Of a stretch of DNA of 64,000 nt, positions 12,436-49,433 are shown piece by piece. Position numbers and translations under genes: made by a program. The stretch's first letter is position 1. Each line of letters opens with the position of its first letter. The stretch lies in NCBI RefSeq assembly GCF_003253995.1, contig NZ_QKZL01000002.1, forward strand, positions 310,001-374,000, read 5' to 3'. Source of the stretch: Palleronia aestuarii (GTDB lineage: Bacteria; Pseudomonadota; Alphaproteobacteria; Rhodobacterales; Rhodobacteraceae). A model generated the notes under the pieces. That model was not told the origin of the DNA. It did not search any database and was given only the letters and a program-made list of their open reading frames with translations.

Positions 12436-14223
12436 CTATTCGGCCGCCATCCCGGCGGTGAATTGCAGGCTCGCGAGCCGGGCGTAGAGCCCGCCCTCGG
12501 CGACGAGTGCGTCGTGGGTTCCGGTGGCGACGATCCGTCCCGCCTCGAAGACCATGATCCGGTCGGCCTTCTTCACCGTGGCGAGCCGATGCGCGACGAT
12601 GAGCGTCGTGCGCCCCTGCGCCAGCCGGTCGACGGCCTGCTGCACGAGTTGTTCGCTCTCCGCGTCGAGCGCGCTCGTGGCCTCGTCGAGTAGGAGGACC
12701 GGCGCGTCGCGCAGGATCGCGCGGGCAATCGCGATACGCTGCTTCTGCCCGCCAGAAAGCATCACGCCGCGCTCGCCCAGATAGGTGTCGTAGCCCTCGG
12801 GGAGCTCGCCCAGGAACGTGTGGGCGGCCGCGGCGCGGGCGGCGGCCTCGACCTCAGCGTCCGAGGCGTCGGGCCGGCCGAAGCGGATGTTCTCCCGCGC
12901 GGAGGCCGCGAAGATCACCGGGTCCTGCGGCACGAGCGCAATATGGCGCCGGAACTCCGCGCGCGACATCGCGGCGAGGTCGGTCCCGTCAAGGCGGATC
13001 GTGCCGCTCTGGGGATCGTAGAAGCGCAGGAGGAGCTGGATGATGGTCGATTTGCCCGCGCCGGAGGGTCCGACGAGCGCAACGGTCTCGCCGGGCGTGA
13101 CGCGGAACGTGACGCCGTCGAGAGCGGGGGTGAGCGGCCGCGCGGGATAGGCGAAGCGCACGTCCTCGAAGGCGATGGCCCCCCGCACGGGCTGGAGCGC
13201 TTCTGTCGCGTCGTCCGGATCGGTCACGCTGTCGGTCACGGTGAGAAGCTCCACGAGCCGTTCCGTGGCGCCTGCGGCGCGTTGAAGCTCGCCCCAGATC
13301 TCCGAGAGCGCGGCGACGCTGCCCGCGACCATCACCGCGTAGATCACGAACTGCACGAGTTCGCCCACGCTCATCAGGTCGGCTCGGACGTCGCGCGCGC
13401 CGATCCAGAGGACGCCGACGATGCCGGTGAAGACGAGGAGGATCACGATCACCGTCATCGCGGCGCGGACCCCGATGCGGGTGCGGGCGGCGCGGAAGGA
13501 GCGTTCCGTCACCTCGGCGAAGGCGGCGCGGGAGCGGGCCTCGTGGGTGTAGGATTGCACGGTCTGCACCGCGGAGAGGGCCTCGGACGCGTTGCCGGAG
13601 GAGGCGGCGATCCAGTCCTGGTTCTCCCGGCTCAGGCGCCGGAGCCGTCGGCCGAGCACGATGATCGGCACGATCACGACCGGCACGATCAGCAGCACGA
13701 GCGCGCTGAGCTTTGCCGAGGTGAAGAAGAGGAGGACCAGTCCGCCTGTCAAAATCAACAGGTTACGAAGCGCGATCGAGACCGAGGAGCCGATCACCGA
13801 CAGGATCAGCGTGGTGTCCGTCGTGATCCGGCTCAGCACCTCGCCCGTCATGATGCGTTCGTAGAAGGCGGGGGAGAGGGCGATGACGCGGTCGAAGACG
13901 GATTTGCGGATGTCGGCAACGACGCGTTCGCCGAGGCGGGTGACGAGGTAGTAGCGCAGGCCCGTGCCGACGGCCATCAGGGCGGCGATGAGGAGGGCCG
14001 CGAGGAAATATTCGTCGAGGAGCGCCTCGGCCGAGGTCTCGAATCCGTCTACGACGCGGCGCACCGCGATGGGCAGGACGAGCGAGACGCAGGCCGTGAG
14101 CACGAGGGCCAGGATGGCCGCGACGAGGAGCGGGCGATAGGGGCGGACGAACGGCCAGAGCGCGACCAAAGCCCCGATCTTGCGGGACTTTTCACGTTCC
14201 TCCGTCGAAGTCTTAGCGGCCAA
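12436..14223 (-). CDS. ABC exporter, fused permease and ATPase (MsbA/LmrA type)
   Basis: A 595-residue half-transporter that would work as a dimer in the inner membrane. Residues 20-310 carry six membrane segments of the type IV exporter fold, followed by the ATPase with Walker A GPSGAGKST, signature LSGGQKQRIAIARA, Walker B VLLLDEATSALD and H-loop IVAHRLAT. The start is a TTG at 14223 preceded by GGGAGAG; no ATG lies near the conserved N-terminus. The family exports lipids, lipopolysaccharide or drugs; the substrate here is unknown. It lies 86 bases downstream of tRNA-Gly on the same strand. Confidence 0.88.
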   Translation of the reverse strand: MAAKTSTEEREKSRKIGALVALWPFVRPYRPLLVAAILALVLTACVSLVLPIAVRRVVDGFETSAEALLDEYFLAALLIAALMAVGTGLRYYLVTRLGERVVADIRKSVFDRVIALSPAFYERIMTGEVLSRITTDTTLILSVIGSSVSIALRNLLILTGGLVLLFFTSAKLSALVLLIVPVVIVPIIVLGRRLRRLSRENQDWIAASSGNASEALSAVQTVQSYTHEARSRAAFAEVTERSFRAARTRIGVRAAMTVIVILLVFTGIVGVLWIGARDVRADLMSVGELVQFVIYAVMVAGSVAALSEIWGELQRAAGATERLVELLTVTDSVTDPDDATEALQPVRGAIAFEDVRFAYPARPLTPALDGVTFRVTPGETVALVGPSGAGKSTIIQLLLRFYDPQSGTIRLDGTDLAAMSRAEFRRHIALVPQDPVIFAASARENIRFGRPDASDAEVEAAARAAAAHTFLGELPEGYDTYLGERGVMLSGGQKQRIAIARAILRDAPVLLLDEATSALDAESEQLVQQAVDRLAQGRTTLIVAHRLATVKKADRIMVFEAGRIVATGTHDALVAEGGLYARLASLQFTAGMAAE

Positions 14224-14308
14224 GTGGCTCTCCCACGCCTGTTGCTGAGCCGTCTAGGCCGGGCTGGACGCGCGGACAACCGGCCAAAGGTCGCGGGGGT
14301 CCGGGATG

Positions 14309-14382
14309 TGGAGCGGGTAGCGGGAATCGAACCCGCACCTTAAGCTTGGAAGGCTCTTATGATACCATTTCACCATACCCGC
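14309..14382 (-). tRNA. tRNA-Gly (anticodon TCC)
   Basis: Read on the - strand it begins GCGGGTATGG and folds into a full cloverleaf. The 7-bp acceptor GCGGGTA/TACCCGC is perfect, the anticodon loop is CTTCCAA with anticodon TCC, and the T arm carries GGTTCGATTCC. The discriminator is U, as expected for bacterial tRNA-Gly, and CCA is encoded in the DNA (14309-14311). Confidence 0.97.
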
Positions 14383-14392
14383 AGTGATCGCC

Positions 14393-14421
14393 TACGTAAC
14401 GCGGGCCGGGCCGGGGTTCAA
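14393..14421 (-). promoter_or_regulatory. Candidate promoter of tRNA-Gly
   Basis: On the - strand TTGAAC (14421-14416) and TACGTA (14398-14393) are separated by exactly 17 bases. Initiation would fall about 4-8 bases before the mature tRNA 5' end at 14382. It fits a housekeeping sigma-70 promoter. Confidence 0.55.
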
Positions 14422-14441
14422 TCCCGGAACGGCCCTGTGTG

Positions 14442-14576
14442 CGTACACGCGACGTACACGGGGCGTACACCGCGCGTGCATCCCCCCCCGTACACCGGGC
14501 GTGCGGCAGGCGTGCGGCAGCCGTAGGGCGGGCGTACACAGAACGTGCGGACATCGTGCATCGAACGTACCGACGA
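14442..14576. repeat. Array of twelve 11-bp degenerate repeats (array 1)
   Basis: Twelve consecutive units read on the + strand start CGTACAC, CGTGC or CGTA; the cleanest is CGTACACGGGG (14453-14463). Eleven units are exactly 11 bases; one (14475-14488) is 14 bases because of a run of C. CGT at positions 1-3 and C at position 5 are the best kept. The array fills most of the gap between the tRNA-Gly promoter and the next possible gene. A second array of the same unit lies at 48651-48771. No stop codons arise, so spurious reading frames cross it. Confidence 0.85.
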
Positions 14577-14718
14577 TCCCGCGCAACGCTCGCCGGGCGT
14601 GGCGCGTCCGCAACGGGGGCGGAAGATTTTCCCGCACCGCGCGCCTGACGTTAAGATGCGTTTCACGCAGATGGGCGATTGGGACGCATCGCAACCCGCT
14701 CGCCCGGACCCGACCGCC

Positions 14719-14949
14719 ATGATCCGCTACGCCCCGCTCAACGCCGTCCTGACCCTCCTCCTGCTCGCCGCGATCGGCGCGGCGGCGCTCAGCGGTCTGT
14801 GGCAGGTCGCGGCGGTGGCCTTCGGGATCGACGTGGCGCTGCGCACCGGCCTCGCGCTCCTCGACCGGGGACTGCGGGCCTTCGCGGGGCTGCCGCTCGT
14901 CGATTACGGCACCGGCCTGCGGCGCCCGGCCGGACCGGCGGGGGTTTGA
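14719..14949 (+). CDS. Possible small membrane protein, unrecognised
   Basis: A 76-residue reading frame beginning MIRYAPLNAVLTLLLLAA with two likely membrane segments (about residues 8-24 and 26-45), followed by a short polar tail ending GLRRPAGPAGV. I do not recognise a family. There is no convincing ribosome site ahead of the ATG at 14719; an in-frame ATG at 14656 would add 21 residues. Codon third positions are GC-rich as in neighbouring real genes. Could be non-coding. Confidence 0.4.
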   Translation: MIRYAPLNAVLTLLLLAAIGAAALSGLWQVAAVAFGIDVALRTGLALLDRGLRAFAGLPLVDYGTGLRRPAGPAGV

Positions 14950-15465: not shown

Positions 15466-17166
15466 TTGGTATTTCATGAGAAAACATTGGAACAAACAGT
15501 CTTGTCCCTCATCAGGCTGAACGATGCCGAGCGTAGTGAAATCTGCAAGTTCTTCAACGATGATCGACCGTTCGGCCCAAGCCAGGCAAACGGATTCCGA
15601 AAAGCTAAGCGAATTCAGGAGCTAGTATTTAGCACCGAAAATGAGATTTGGAAAGAATACAAGAGGAATCCACGCGTAATAGTTGGACGGAAAGGTTCAG
15701 GAAAGACTTCGGTTTTGTCTCAGACTGAACACCTTGGTAAGTTTGGAGTGGTGTTCAAACCCTCGCTTTCAAAAATTATCAGACAAGTTGGCGAGCAGCT
15801 TTTCGAACACGCGCATGATTTACGCCGGATTGATGCAGAGATTTCGGCTGATGTGTGGAAGAGAATTGTAAATGTATCATTGATGGGTGAGGTTTTAAAA
15901 AAGTTCCCTGATCGAGAGTTCCCCAAGATAGAGAAGTATTTCTTTTATATTGGAAAAAAAGCGGAAGGCAGGGAGCATCGCGGAAACATCTTAGAGAAGT
16001 CTGAAGCGTATGTAAGAGGATTAATAACGTCTTTGCGGTCGATCAATCGTGGTTCGACGGAGTCCCACATAGGATATTTAGTCTCATTGGCGCTGGATTT
16101 TGCGGCGTCGAGTGAAATCGACTTTGAGGAAGCATTAGATGAGCTAGATCAGTTCCTCGAAGAGAGTGATATTCACGCAATCGTGATACTCGACTCTAAG
16201 GAAGAATATGACGTAAACGACTTTCAATCGGAAGCAATCCTAAAAGGAATGCTTCGGTTTGTTGGGGCCTATGGGGAGGATTATCGACACGTAAGAATGG
16301 CTATTCCGGCTGAGGGCTTCTTCGATTTGCGTGGAATATCTTCGAATCCATCAAAGGACTTTGAGGACGCAATGGTACTCCATTGGTCTCCAATAGAGTT
16401 ACTTCGTATGGTGGCATGGCGATATTTGATCTTTTTGGCAGGAAACGATCCTGTGAAATTGAAGAAGTTTAGAGACCTTAGCTTGTCTAGCCGTGATGAC
16501 GTTCATCAAATCCTTTCAGATTTTTTAAGCAATGAGATACTTAATCGAGGAGGGAGTAAGGAGTATACCATTGCTTATTTGCTCCGCCACTCGCAGTTGC
16601 TTCCGAGGCAGATCATAAAAATTTTGAATCTTGCTTTTTCAGGTATCAGGCCGTCCGTACCACGGGAAGAAGCGGAAATTCGTGATTCTATCGTTCAGGC
16701 GATAAGGGAAAGCGAGGGCAACATTTGTACGGAGGTATTCATTTCGTACAGAATGAAGTATCCATTCATAGAAAGGCTCTGTGAGGAGGTTTTGCCAAAC
16801 TTGCCGAGATTCTTTTCCGAAGCAGAACTTAAGAACGCCTATCGAGATCGAGGTAAAGCCGTTCTTCAGGACTCTGGGCATTTGATAATTAATTCCTTCA
16901 CCGATTTTAAACGATGCTTGCTCGAAATTGGCTGTATCGGAAGGGTTTCGGTTAAAGAGAAGACGTCGCAGTATGCGGACGCTGAATTTGAGTATGCAAT
17001 TCCAGGAAAATTGTCCATCTCCGAAGATGATGAATTATGCATCCATCCAATTTTTTCTGGTGCATTCGAGACAGCAAAGAATCGTAAGTCTGAGCATTAT
17101 GTTTATCCACACATGAGTCTCTATAACTTTCCTGCAAAAAGAGTGATCAAACTCAAAAGAGTTTAG
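15466..17166 (+). CDS. Low-GC P-loop ATPase (Sll1717-like), probably acquired
   Basis: A 566-residue protein in a segment clearly richer in A+T than all its neighbours, indicating transfer. It has a Walker A motif GRKGSGKTS (residues 74-82) and a likely Walker B IVILDS (239-244), after an FGPSQAN segment near residue 36 like that seen in the Sll1717 family of P-loop ATPases. The C-terminal half (about 400-566) has no motif I recognise and may be an effector or sensor part. The start is uncertain: no ATG is near, a stop lies at 15457, and TTG at 15466 is the first possible start (TTG 15487 next). Family members are of unknown function; a phage-defence role is speculation from isolation and composition. 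The stop codon overlaps that of parE on the other strand. Confidence 0.8.
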   Translation: MVFHEKTLEQTVLSLIRLNDAERSEICKFFNDDRPFGPSQANGFRKAKRIQELVFSTENEIWKEYKRNPRVIVGRKGSGKTSVLSQTEHLGKFGVVFKPSLSKIIRQVGEQLFEHAHDLRRIDAEISADVWKRIVNVSLMGEVLKKFPDREFPKIEKYFFYIGKKAEGREHRGNILEKSEAYVRGLITSLRSINRGSTESHIGYLVSLALDFAASSEIDFEEALDELDQFLEESDIHAIVILDSKEEYDVNDFQSEAILKGMLRFVGAYGEDYRHVRMAIPAEGFFDLRGISSNPSKDFEDAMVLHWSPIELLRMVAWRYLIFLAGNDPVKLKKFRDLSLSSRDDVHQILSDFLSNEILNRGGSKEYTIAYLLRHSQLLPRQIIKILNLAFSGIRPSVPREEAEIRDSIVQAIRESEGNICTEVFISYRMKYPFIERLCEEVLPNLPRFFSEAELKNAYRDRGKAVLQDSGHLIINSFTDFKRCLLEIGCIGRVSVKEKTSQYADAEFEYAIPGKLSISEDDELCIHPIFSGAFETAKNRKSEHYVYPHMSLYNFPAKRVIKLKRV

Positions 17167-47582: not shown

Positions 47583-48623
47583 TCACGCCGACAGCGCCGC
47601 GGTGATCGCGGCGCGGTCGAGCCCGGCTTCGCCGATGACGACGAGCCGCGTCTCCCGTTCCGATCCGCCGAGCGGCCGGTCGTAGTAGCTGTCGACGCGC
47701 GGACCCACCGCCTGGATGGTCAGGCGCATGGGCTTGCCCGTCACCGCCGCGAACCCCTTCAGACGCAAGATATCGTGGCTGCGGATCGTTTGCGCCACAA
47801 GATCGGCGAAAGCTTTCGGATCGGCAATTTCGGGGCGGGTCACGACGAAGCTCTCGAACTCGTCGTGATCGTGGTCATGCTCCCCGTCCTCTCCGTGATG
47901 GTGGTGGGGAGCGTCGCGGGCGTCGAGATCGGTCTCCGCCGCCGCGGACCGGCCGAGGAGGACGTCGGCGGGCAGGACGCCCATCGAGGTCGAGACGACC
48001 TGGACGCCGGGGCGGGATTCTGTGCGCAGGCGGTCGGAAAGGCTTTTGGCCTCAATGGGTTCCAGGAGGTCTGACTTGTTGACGACGATGAGGTCGGCGC
48101 AGGCGATCTGATCCTCGAACAGCTCGGAGAGCGGGGTCTCGTGGTCGAGGTTGTCGTCGGCCGCGCGCTGAGCGTCTACCGCGTTGATATCGTGGGCGAA
48201 ACGGCCCTCCGCCACGGCCTTGCCATCGACGAGGGTGACGACGCCGTCTACGGTGACGCGGGTGGAGATCTCGGGCCAGTTGAAGGCCTGGACGAGCGGC
48301 TGCGGCAGGGCGAGACCGGAGGTCTCGATCACGATGTGATCCGGCAAGTCTTTGCGTGACAACAGTTTTTCTAGGGTCGGCACGAAATCCTCGGCGACGG
48401 TGCAGCAGATGCAGCCGTTCGAGAGCTCCATCACGTCGTCGTCGGTGCAGGTGGCGTCGCCGCAGCCCTTGAGGATGTCGCCATCGACGCCGAGATCACC
48501 GAACTCGTTGATGATCAAGGCAATCTTCCGCCCTTCCGCATTGTTCAGGAGGTGACGGATCAGCGTCGTCTTGCCCGATCCGAGGAAGCCGGTGACGATT
48601 GTGGCGGGGATCTTGGCGGGCAT
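47583..48623 (-). CDS. cobW: CobW GTPase, metal chaperone of cobalamin synthesis
   Basis: A 346-residue COG0523-family GTPase, thought to deliver cobalt for CobN. It has Walker A TGFLGSGKTTLIRH near residue 10, the metal-binding CICC motif (GCICCTV), the VNKSDLLE G4 motif, and a histidine-rich loop (HHHHGEDGEHDHDHDE) in the middle. The start at 48623 (MPAKIPAT) follows GAGAGG. Separated from upstream hupE by the 11-bp repeat array. Confidence 0.93.
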   Translation of the reverse strand: MPAKIPATIVTGFLGSGKTTLIRHLLNNAEGRKIALIINEFGDLGVDGDILKGCGDATCTDDDVMELSNGCICCTVAEDFVPTLEKLLSRKDLPDHIVIETSGLALPQPLVQAFNWPEISTRVTVDGVVTLVDGKAVAEGRFAHDINAVDAQRAADDNLDHETPLSELFEDQIACADLIVVNKSDLLEPIEAKSLSDRLRTESRPGVQVVSTSMGVLPADVLLGRSAAAETDLDARDAPHHHHGEDGEHDHDHDEFESFVVTRPEIADPKAFADLVAQTIRSHDILRLKGFAAVTGKPMRLTIQAVGPRVDSYYDRPLGGSERETRLVVIGEAGLDRAAITAALSA

Positions 48624-48650: not shown

Positions 48651-48771
48651 CGTACACGGAACGTACACGGGGCGTACACGGAATGTCGGATCCGCGTGCA
48701 GCGGGCGTCAGGCGCCCGTGCATACGGGGTATGGCGGGTGTGCAGCGGGCGTACACAGGTCGTGCGTACGC
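48651..48771. repeat. Array of eleven 11-bp degenerate repeats (array 2)
   Basis: Eleven consecutive 11-base units on the + strand with no change of spacing over 121 bases. Clean units are CGTACACGGAA (48651, 48673), CGTACACGGGG (48662) and CGTACACAGGT (48750); others keep CGT or TGT plus a G-rich end. The unit is the same as in array 1 (14442-14576). It fills nearly all of the 162-base gap between hupE and cobW, so it is probably transcribed in the reverse sense within that operon. Confidence 0.85.
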
Positions 48772-48785
48772 CCGACATCGAGGGC

Positions 48786-49433
48786 TCAGCCCCAGCCGAG
48801 CGCGCCGAAGATGGCGCCTTCGGCCGTCTCGAGCGTGAGGAAGAGCCCCACCCCCGCGACGACGGCACCGGCGAGGCGCGGCTCGAGCGCGGTCGCGGCC
48901 GCGGCGGACGCGAGACGGCGCAGGGCGAGGCCGGCGCCTACGGCGATCGCGTATTGCACGGCGAGGAGCCCGAGCAGGTAGCCCGGAAGGACGGCGCCCA
49001 TCGCGCCCGCCTCGGCCGAGGCCATCGCGCCGCCGAAGGCGGCGCCGTGGAAGAGGCCGAAGCCCGCGAAGAGCGCCATCGCGACCGGCGCGGAGGGCGC
49101 GCGGCCCGACAGCGCCACGGCGCCCAGGCCGAGCAGCGAAACGGCGATCACCGCCTCGGTCAGCGGCAGGGCGGGGCCGAAGGTGGTCAGCAGCACGCCG
49201 GCGAGCATCGCGGCCAGATAGGCGAGCGGCCCGGTGAAGGCCCGGCCCGCGAACGCCGCGACGATCCCCACCAGGGCGACGAAGAAGAGATGGTCGAAGC
49301 CCAGCACCGGATGGCCGACGCCCGAAAGCAGCCCGTGGGCGAACGTGGTCATCTCCGTCCCGCCGAGCGGGTGGTGGGCGAGTGCGGGCGTGGCGGCGAG
49401 CGCGGCCCCGGCGGTCGTAAGAAGTCGTTTCAT
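48786..49433 (-). CDS. hupE: HupE/UreJ-family membrane protein, candidate cobalt importer
   Basis: A 215-residue protein with a signal peptide (ending TPALAHH) and about six membrane segments. The N-terminal HHPLGG and the GHPVLGFDHLFFVALVG segment, with conserved His and Asp, are the HupE/UreJ metal-transport signature. The start at 49433 has GGAAGGGGA nine bases upstream. A cobalamin riboswitch precedes it, so cobalt rather than nickel is the likely substrate. First gene of the - strand cobalamin block. Confidence 0.85.
   Translation of the reverse strand: MKRLLTTAGAALAATPALAHHPLGGTEMTTFAHGLLSGVGHPVLGFDHLFFVALVGIVAAFAGRAFTGPLAYLAAMLAGVLLTTFGPALPLTEAVIAVSLLGLGAVALSGRAPSAPVAMALFAGFGLFHGAAFGGAMASAEAGAMGAVLPGYLLGLLAVQYAIAVGAGLALRRLASAAAATALEPRLAGAVVAGVGLFLTLETAEGAIFGALGWG

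Follow-up and report, generated by a model that had tools for sequence, protein, structure and literature searches.

Related repeat systems

In the type II partition system of plasmid R1, the protein ParR requires at least two 11-bp repeats, and ParR and parC form a solenoid-shaped segrosome (passages of PMC9426499); the title of a work cited in that source gives R1 parC ten direct repeats. The small winged-helix protein BldC of Streptomyces binds variable numbers of direct repeats head to tail (passages of PMC5859096), and in an extended BldC complex the protomers are separated by one DNA turn (passages of PMC11963761). The arrays that we describe here resemble parC in their 11-bp direct repeats in helical phase, which in parC are bound by a repeat-binding protein. 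However, parC lies beside parM and parR on a plasmid, whereas the arrays number about 30 per genome and the letters of their unit differ between genomes. BldC operators are 9-bp AATT-type repeats at promoters, while the arrays have a period of 11 and a YGTRC core and often lie at gene ends. By analogy the arrays would work like ParR-parC or BldC sites. They are not classed as members of either group, because no par genes were seen among the 17 Palleronia aestuarii flanking genes that were scanned, out of 58 gene positions next to the 29 arrays, and because the BldC repeats are of 9 bp.

An 11-bp direct-repeat step is also found in the pho box of PhoB, the CtrA box TTAA-N7-TTAA and the alphaproteobacterial LexA box GTTC-N7-GTTC. 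These boxes consist of two or few units at promoters, whereas the arrays have up to 12 units; we know of no comparable 12-unit dispersed arrays. The REP and BIME repeats of enterobacteria are dispersed, intergenic and biased to gene ends, and they form hairpin palindromes. The arrays differ from these in their strict 11-bp phase and in having no overall hairpin signal (29 arrays). Among open-licence PMC papers, no paper describing the 11-bp array repeat was found by title and abstract.

The array and its surroundings

The window analysed here is the whole stretch of 64,000 nucleotides of P. aestuarii DNA; its relevant features are collected in Table 1. The first-pass annotation had described twelve 11-bp units with a single 3-base slip, and this description is confirmed. 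The full CGTRC core is present in 11 of the 12 units, the remaining unit reads CGTAG, and every step is 11 bp except one of 14 bp, which is the slip. Chance is excluded by a pair count and by a phase score. For the pair CGTRC-N6-CGTRC the window has 14 occurrences where 0.88 would be expected, and none of 100 shuffles reached 14. The phased YGT score, taken over 11 units in 11-bp phase, is 8 for this array, whereas 2000 dinucleotide shuffles gave at most 5; for the second array of the window it is 10, with a shuffle maximum of 4.

Table 1. Position and strand of the arrays and neighbouring features in the window
Feature	Position	Strand	Remarks
Helically phased array, 12 units of 11 bp, CGTACAC / CGTGC-type core plus about 4 free bases	14442..14576	+	14-bp step at unit 4
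GCAACG box	14583..14588	+	3' of the 14442-14576 array; another at 14610-14615
tRNA-Gly(TCC)	14309..14382	-	neighbour without sign of a functional link
566-aa ORF	15466..17166	+	TTG start; P-loop-like stretch; not called coding by the codon model
cobW	47583..48623	-	flanks the second array, which lies upstream of it
Second array of the family, 11 units, exact 11-bp register	48651..48771	+	supported by phase score and match to model R1
HupE/UreJ-family gene	48786..49433	-	other flank of the second array

The 5' end of tRNA-Gly(TCC) is separated from the first array by 59 bp. A search of positions 14200-14800 with Rfam covariance models, at E-values up to 1, gave four matches, all inside 14224-14382, and none over the array. 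The 566-aa ORF of Table 1 is perhaps compositionally foreign; Pfam and PADLOC gave no match to it.

A family of arrays in the P. aestuarii genome

The array is not unique: about 30 arrays, including the second one of the window, are dispersed over 14 contigs. In the 4.54-Mb draft genome the pattern CGTACAC-N4-CGTRCR has 76 matches, against 0 for the reversed control pattern. A sequence-only model, R1, was built from 29 of the arrays, the array at 14442-14576 included, and hence re-finds its own input. It returned 30 distinct places (the 29 input arrays and one on contig C8) plus 12 antisense shadows; the first and second arrays of the window, scored with this same model, have E-values of 1.5e-21 and 1.1e-20.

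Arrays were located by a finder that uses CGTRC at 11 bp as its seed and gives a step of 11 the first try, and the following figures for register, step and lag depend on this procedure. In fixed register, unit positions 2-3 read GT in all 29 arrays for ordinals 0-3 and in 24-28 of them for ordinals 4-10. Of the 320 steps, 318 measure 11 bp. The probability of a further GT at +11, +22, +33 or +44, given a GT, is 0.84-0.85, compared with at most 0.064 at the other lags from 3 to 45. Beyond ordinal 10 the GT is found in 17, 7, 6 and then 1 of the 29 arrays. Because occupancy falls off at this point, the length of an array is taken to be about 11-12 turns. The leading units are CGTACAC and later units are often CGTGCAG. 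The phased YGT score is 7-11 across the 29 arrays and at most 4 in the controls (164 intergenic and 1771 genic windows, both strands). The first-pass annotation had raised the possibility that random intergenic DNA has an equal 11-base periodicity, and this was not found: the 164 intergenic windows never exceed 4 phased YGT.

Two further features of the P. aestuarii arrays concern their composition and their downstream side. T is scarce outside unit position 3 (29 arrays), a scarcity of which a plain contact model gives no account. GCAACG or CGTTGC occurs within 90 bp downstream in 12 of the 29 arrays, against 1.25 expected. At one place (L174:4454-5182) two arrays of the same orientation lie about 500 bp apart with no gene called between them.

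Agreement at unit positions 6-11 was compared within and between the 29 arrays. It is 0.389 for neighbouring units and 0.383 for non-neighbours in the same array; between arrays it is 0.398 for units of other ordinals and 0.457 for units of the same ordinal. Since same-ordinal units are the most alike, the arrays are related as whole elements and not by local duplication of units. This agrees with the earlier proposal that spacing is kept while letters vary and that slippage is not the source, as neighbouring units are no more alike than units of different arrays. RNA folding of the 29 arrays gave mean z values of -0.40 on the sense and -0.86 on the antisense strand, with single arrays down to -4.5, and hence no overall signal on either strand. 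A reading of the arrays as RNA elements was rejected on this result and on the lack of an Rfam match over the array at 14442-14576.

Gene context

Gene context was taken from 138 of 165 arrays; 20 at contig ends and 7 called inside genes were left out. The gaps that hold them are tandem in 83 cases, convergent in 35 and divergent in 20, against a background of 248, 58 and 110 (p 8e-4), so that convergent gaps are enriched for arrays and divergent gaps depleted. Where a P. aestuarii array has an upstream gene in its own direction, it starts 0-19 bp past the stop codon in 11 of 12 cases. Both orientations relative to genes occur. Genes were called by a codon-score script, which gives only approximate start positions and distances to them and which missed the 566-aa ORF of the window. 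The flanking genes scanned, among them serC, serA, bchL, bchM, a csp-like gene, ppk2, DNA ligase, lpd and chorismate mutase, show no common function, and no array-binding protein was found among them.

Same step, other letters in related bacteria

The pattern CGTACAC-N4-CGTACAC-N4-CGTACA was found in at least 110 stretches of named genomes, and 69 of the 80 loci among the matches listed belong to Rhodobacterales. The genera with arrays among these matches include Paracoccus, Litoreibacter, Roseicyclus, Jannaschia, Nioella, Yoonia, Sulfitobacter and others. The other 11 of the 80 (1 Streptomyces, 1 Oscillospiraceae, 2 Bacteroidales and 7 Limisphaerales) were left out of the Rhodobacterales set, and 67 of its 69 loci entered alignment A2. 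The arrays at the 69 loci among the matches listed are shorter, with three or four full units and with CGTACATACG, CGTATGTACG and CGTCGTGACAG as frequent endings. In the 53 of these loci that are fully flanked, GTTAAC has a density of 3.30/kb within 100 bp of the short arrays, compared with 0.16/kb in other intergenic and 0.033/kb in genic DNA.

A survey of 198 genomes of the family found CGTACAC-N4-CGTACAY in six, P. aestuarii included. Matches of the CGTACAC and GTCGGRC types number 42 and 2 in P. aestuarii, 27 and 1 in G214, 0 and 68 in G064, and 0 and 85 in G093, and the reversed control for GTCGGRC-N4 has 0 matches in G064 and 2 in G093. These counts by genome indicate that the 11-bp design is common and that the letters are genome-specific. 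One or more matches to the GTCGGRC pattern occur in 104 of the 198 genomes, but their numbers are mostly no higher than those of the reversed control; six of the 7 matches in G160 fall within one tandem stretch. The spacer in G214 is mostly CCCCC or CCGGG. The unit of G064 is GTCGGGCAAGT or near it, with about 4-7 units per array. The 68 matches of this genome fall into about 31 places on both strands, all of those listed being on the 3.79-Mb contig C1, and at least 3 of the 31 (L379, L421 and L423 minus) resemble chance matches in coding DNA. Judged by eye, the strands of the arrays along C1 show no clear pattern of replication polarity.

Two side observations belong to this comparison. Downstream of the array, four of 17 elements of G214 (L251, L254, L255 and L256) have a further common sequence, GGTTTCGCCGCCTGCCGGCGTCGA-like, and this longer repeat may be mobile. 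A Limisphaerales MAG, of another phylum, has 11-bp arrays of 9-15 units on six contigs (L048, L058, L063, L064, L096 and L103), with units such as CGTACACCATC and CGTACAATATC and mostly the same YGTAC core; this likeness may reflect convergence or a common reader.

Shared sites and orientation

Comparison of the flanking genes of 165 arrays shows that several gene gaps hold arrays in different genera, usually in one orientation and with a different unit (CGTACAC in P. aestuarii, GTCGGGC in G064), the step being unchanged. The gap between a GNAT gene and chorismate mutase (site A) has arrays in P. aestuarii (L189), L065, G040 and G064, all in a single orientation. By eye, its congener counterparts in G003 (about 10 units) and in G002 and G010 (about 3 each) have other units in the P. 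aestuarii direction; the gene matches in these three are only 52-56% identical. Site B, between a queuosine-precursor transporter gene and a downstream gene that we take to be arfB, has arrays of the same orientation in P. aestuarii, L102 and G214. Arrays are further shared by P. aestuarii and L070 at site D (lpd / MAPEG) and by P. aestuarii (L196) and L091 at site G, and at sites E and F CGTACAC arrays of named genomes are paired with GTCGGGC arrays of G064.

Overall, with two paralogous transporter matches excluded, 11 of the 136 arrays from outside P. aestuarii lie at P. aestuarii array sites, and both flanking genes are matched in 8 of them. With an estimated 2145 P. aestuarii gaps and arrays treated as independent, 1.8 would be expected by chance (p 4e-6), or 3.7 with two chances allowed per gap (p 0.0015). 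Counted by gaps shared between sets, orientation agrees in 13 and differs in 3 (p 0.011); the three are serC-serA (through G122), L090 and G214 L253 (51% identity), and a paralogous transporter match. Counted by gene-matched pairs, which are non-independent (two flanks, and several members per gap), 42 agree and 6 differ. Within the named set the orientation of L056 and L084 differs also, and L100 and G064 L431 have their arrays at opposite ends of one gene.

Within the genus, arrays lie at or beside a P. aestuarii site at 4 of the 5 loci examined in G009, 3 of 7 in G008 and 3 of 8 in G013, not counting G013 L291, where the P. aestuarii array is about 2 kb away. Both flanking genes are common at serC-serA, bchL-bchM and L190 (where a 53-aa gene is missing in G008 and G013). 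One flank is common at csp, where the G009 array is 430 bp off, and at the ligase gene.

Turnover and sequence constraint

No R1 match was found in 8 of the 14 genomes of the genus, a search that would miss other units. The link to tRNA-Gly suggested by the position of the window's first array is not sustained. A tRNA-Gly(TCC) lies at most 1.4 kb upstream of the same gene in 9 of 13 congeners, in eight of them within about 200 bp, and none of the 9 has phased YGT at that place (S at most 3; this score misses short arrays and other units). The first-pass annotation had named absence of the array at the same place in close relatives as evidence against its reading, and for this one array such absence is what was observed; other arrays of the family do share sites across species and genera. 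By eye, the arfB gap is empty in seven congeners (G011, G007, G008, G013, G004, G009 and G012), in which a matching terminator runs straight to the gene. The serC-serA gap has an array in P. aestuarii and G009, G006 shows a weaker array there, and most other congeners have none; the P. aestuarii array stands as extra DNA after the serC stop codon, the remainder of the gap resembling that of G007 (both by eye). Since arrays are missing at individual sites in congeners, sites are gained and lost, and the absence of the tRNA-Gly and arfB arrays where congener gaps are comparable means that no single array is essential.

Seven orthologous arrays could be compared between the sister species G008 and G013. 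With the column split taken from the P. aestuarii unit, there are 9 differences among 394 positions in columns 1-6 and 27 among 324 in columns 7-11 (Fisher p 2e-4); a single indel was seen in the seven arrays. The GT alone compared with the rest (3/133 against 33/585, p 0.07) is not significantly different. Whole arrays have changed as much as their flanks (36/718, or 5.0%, against 61/1302, or 4.7%). This pattern of substitution indicates that constraint acts on columns of the unit and not on the whole stretch. In G005, a congener with a small genome, the palindrome GTACAANTTGTAC was seen at all three array sites examined (L303, L385 and L406) and was absent at one control locus, L148; it is possibly a different version of the element.

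A proposed phased DNA platform and its alternatives

The explanation that we propose, and to which we give an even chance, is that the arrays are a DNA platform on which a putative protein assembles, one protomer per helical turn. The array at 14442-14576 would belong to a dispersed element that is present in about 30 copies per genome and works as double-stranded DNA. Protomers of the putative DNA-binding protein would line up head to tail on a single face of the helix, one for each 11-bp turn, each protomer reading a YGT(R)C-type core and leaving about four bases free between cores. How large the complex becomes would depend on the number and phase of the contacts: 11-12 turns in P. aestuarii and about 4-7 in other genera. 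We infer the protein, its oligomerisation and its chromosomal role. The proposal is drawn from several observations: the phase stays fixed for as many as 12 turns, the core is conserved while the spacers are free, both orientations occur, and there is neither an RNA-fold signal nor a common theme among the genes scanned. That arrays recur at some of the same sites in related bacteria, with the same spacing but different letters, points to a reader protein. A role in the chromosome (anchoring, segregation, topology) is more likely for such a complex than one in a regulon, given that arrays face either way relative to genes and that the neighbouring genes scanned are unrelated.

The main rival, which we consider possible if on the unlikely side, is a non-autonomous mobile or REP-like intergenic repeat, in which the copying enzyme recognises the phased units and spread within each genome yields a genome-specific unit and unit number. 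The homology of whole elements implied by the likeness of same-ordinal units, the genome-specific unit, the empty arfB gaps and the serC-serA array standing as extra DNA relative to G007 (by eye) all fit such copying. However, independent insertions would hardly give different units in the same gap, mostly in the same orientation, across genera; no terminal inverted repeat was noticed in the array flanks inspected; and the core columns change less than the spacer columns between G008 and G013. Genome-specific units require either a protein with a drifting preference or a copying process, and the mobile repeat explains them more directly. The platform and the mobile repeat are compatible if copies spread and were then kept as platforms.

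The placement of arrays directly after stop codons of genes in the same direction, and their excess in convergent and deficit in divergent gaps, would also suit a transcript-end element that works like REP/BIME repeats, as a Rho-type loading site or a supercoil-relief (gyrase) site. We think this quite unlikely, as there are just some 30 arrays per genome, RNA folding z is near 0, and both strands are used relative to genes whereas a role at the RNA level needs one strand; to our knowledge a phased GT core is no feature of Rho or gyrase sites. The unit anatomy of 7 + 4 bp, in 11-bp direct repeats like the pho box, and the density of GTTAAC near short arrays suggest instead a single regulon whose operators are bound by a response regulator of the OmpR family (PhoB or CtrA-like). 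Promoter location does not bear this out, with more arrays in convergent gaps than the few in divergent ones, and the flanking genes scanned are unrelated; such operators are a very unlikely explanation. An ordinary minisatellite made by slippage would produce 11-bp units in tandem, but it was rejected as extremely improbable, because neighbouring units are no more alike than distant ones and the length and ordinal pattern are fixed over 29 arrays.

A broader form of the platform proposal, which we regard as doubtful and offer tentatively, would be a chromosome-wide set of some thirty centromere-like phased platforms that is conserved as a system across Rhodobacteraceae. Part of the sites, the orientation and the geometry of one contact per turn would be inherited, and the letters of the unit would change in concert in each genome, following or driving a drifting reader. 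If a protein does read the arrays, they would be a bacterial case in which the geometry of a platform is conserved while its letters are rewritten genome-wide, and the co-change of dispersed sites and their reader would become directly testable. The arrays would then reveal that a large and well-sequenced family of marine and soil bacteria has a chromosome-organising or mobile system that has gone unrecognised.
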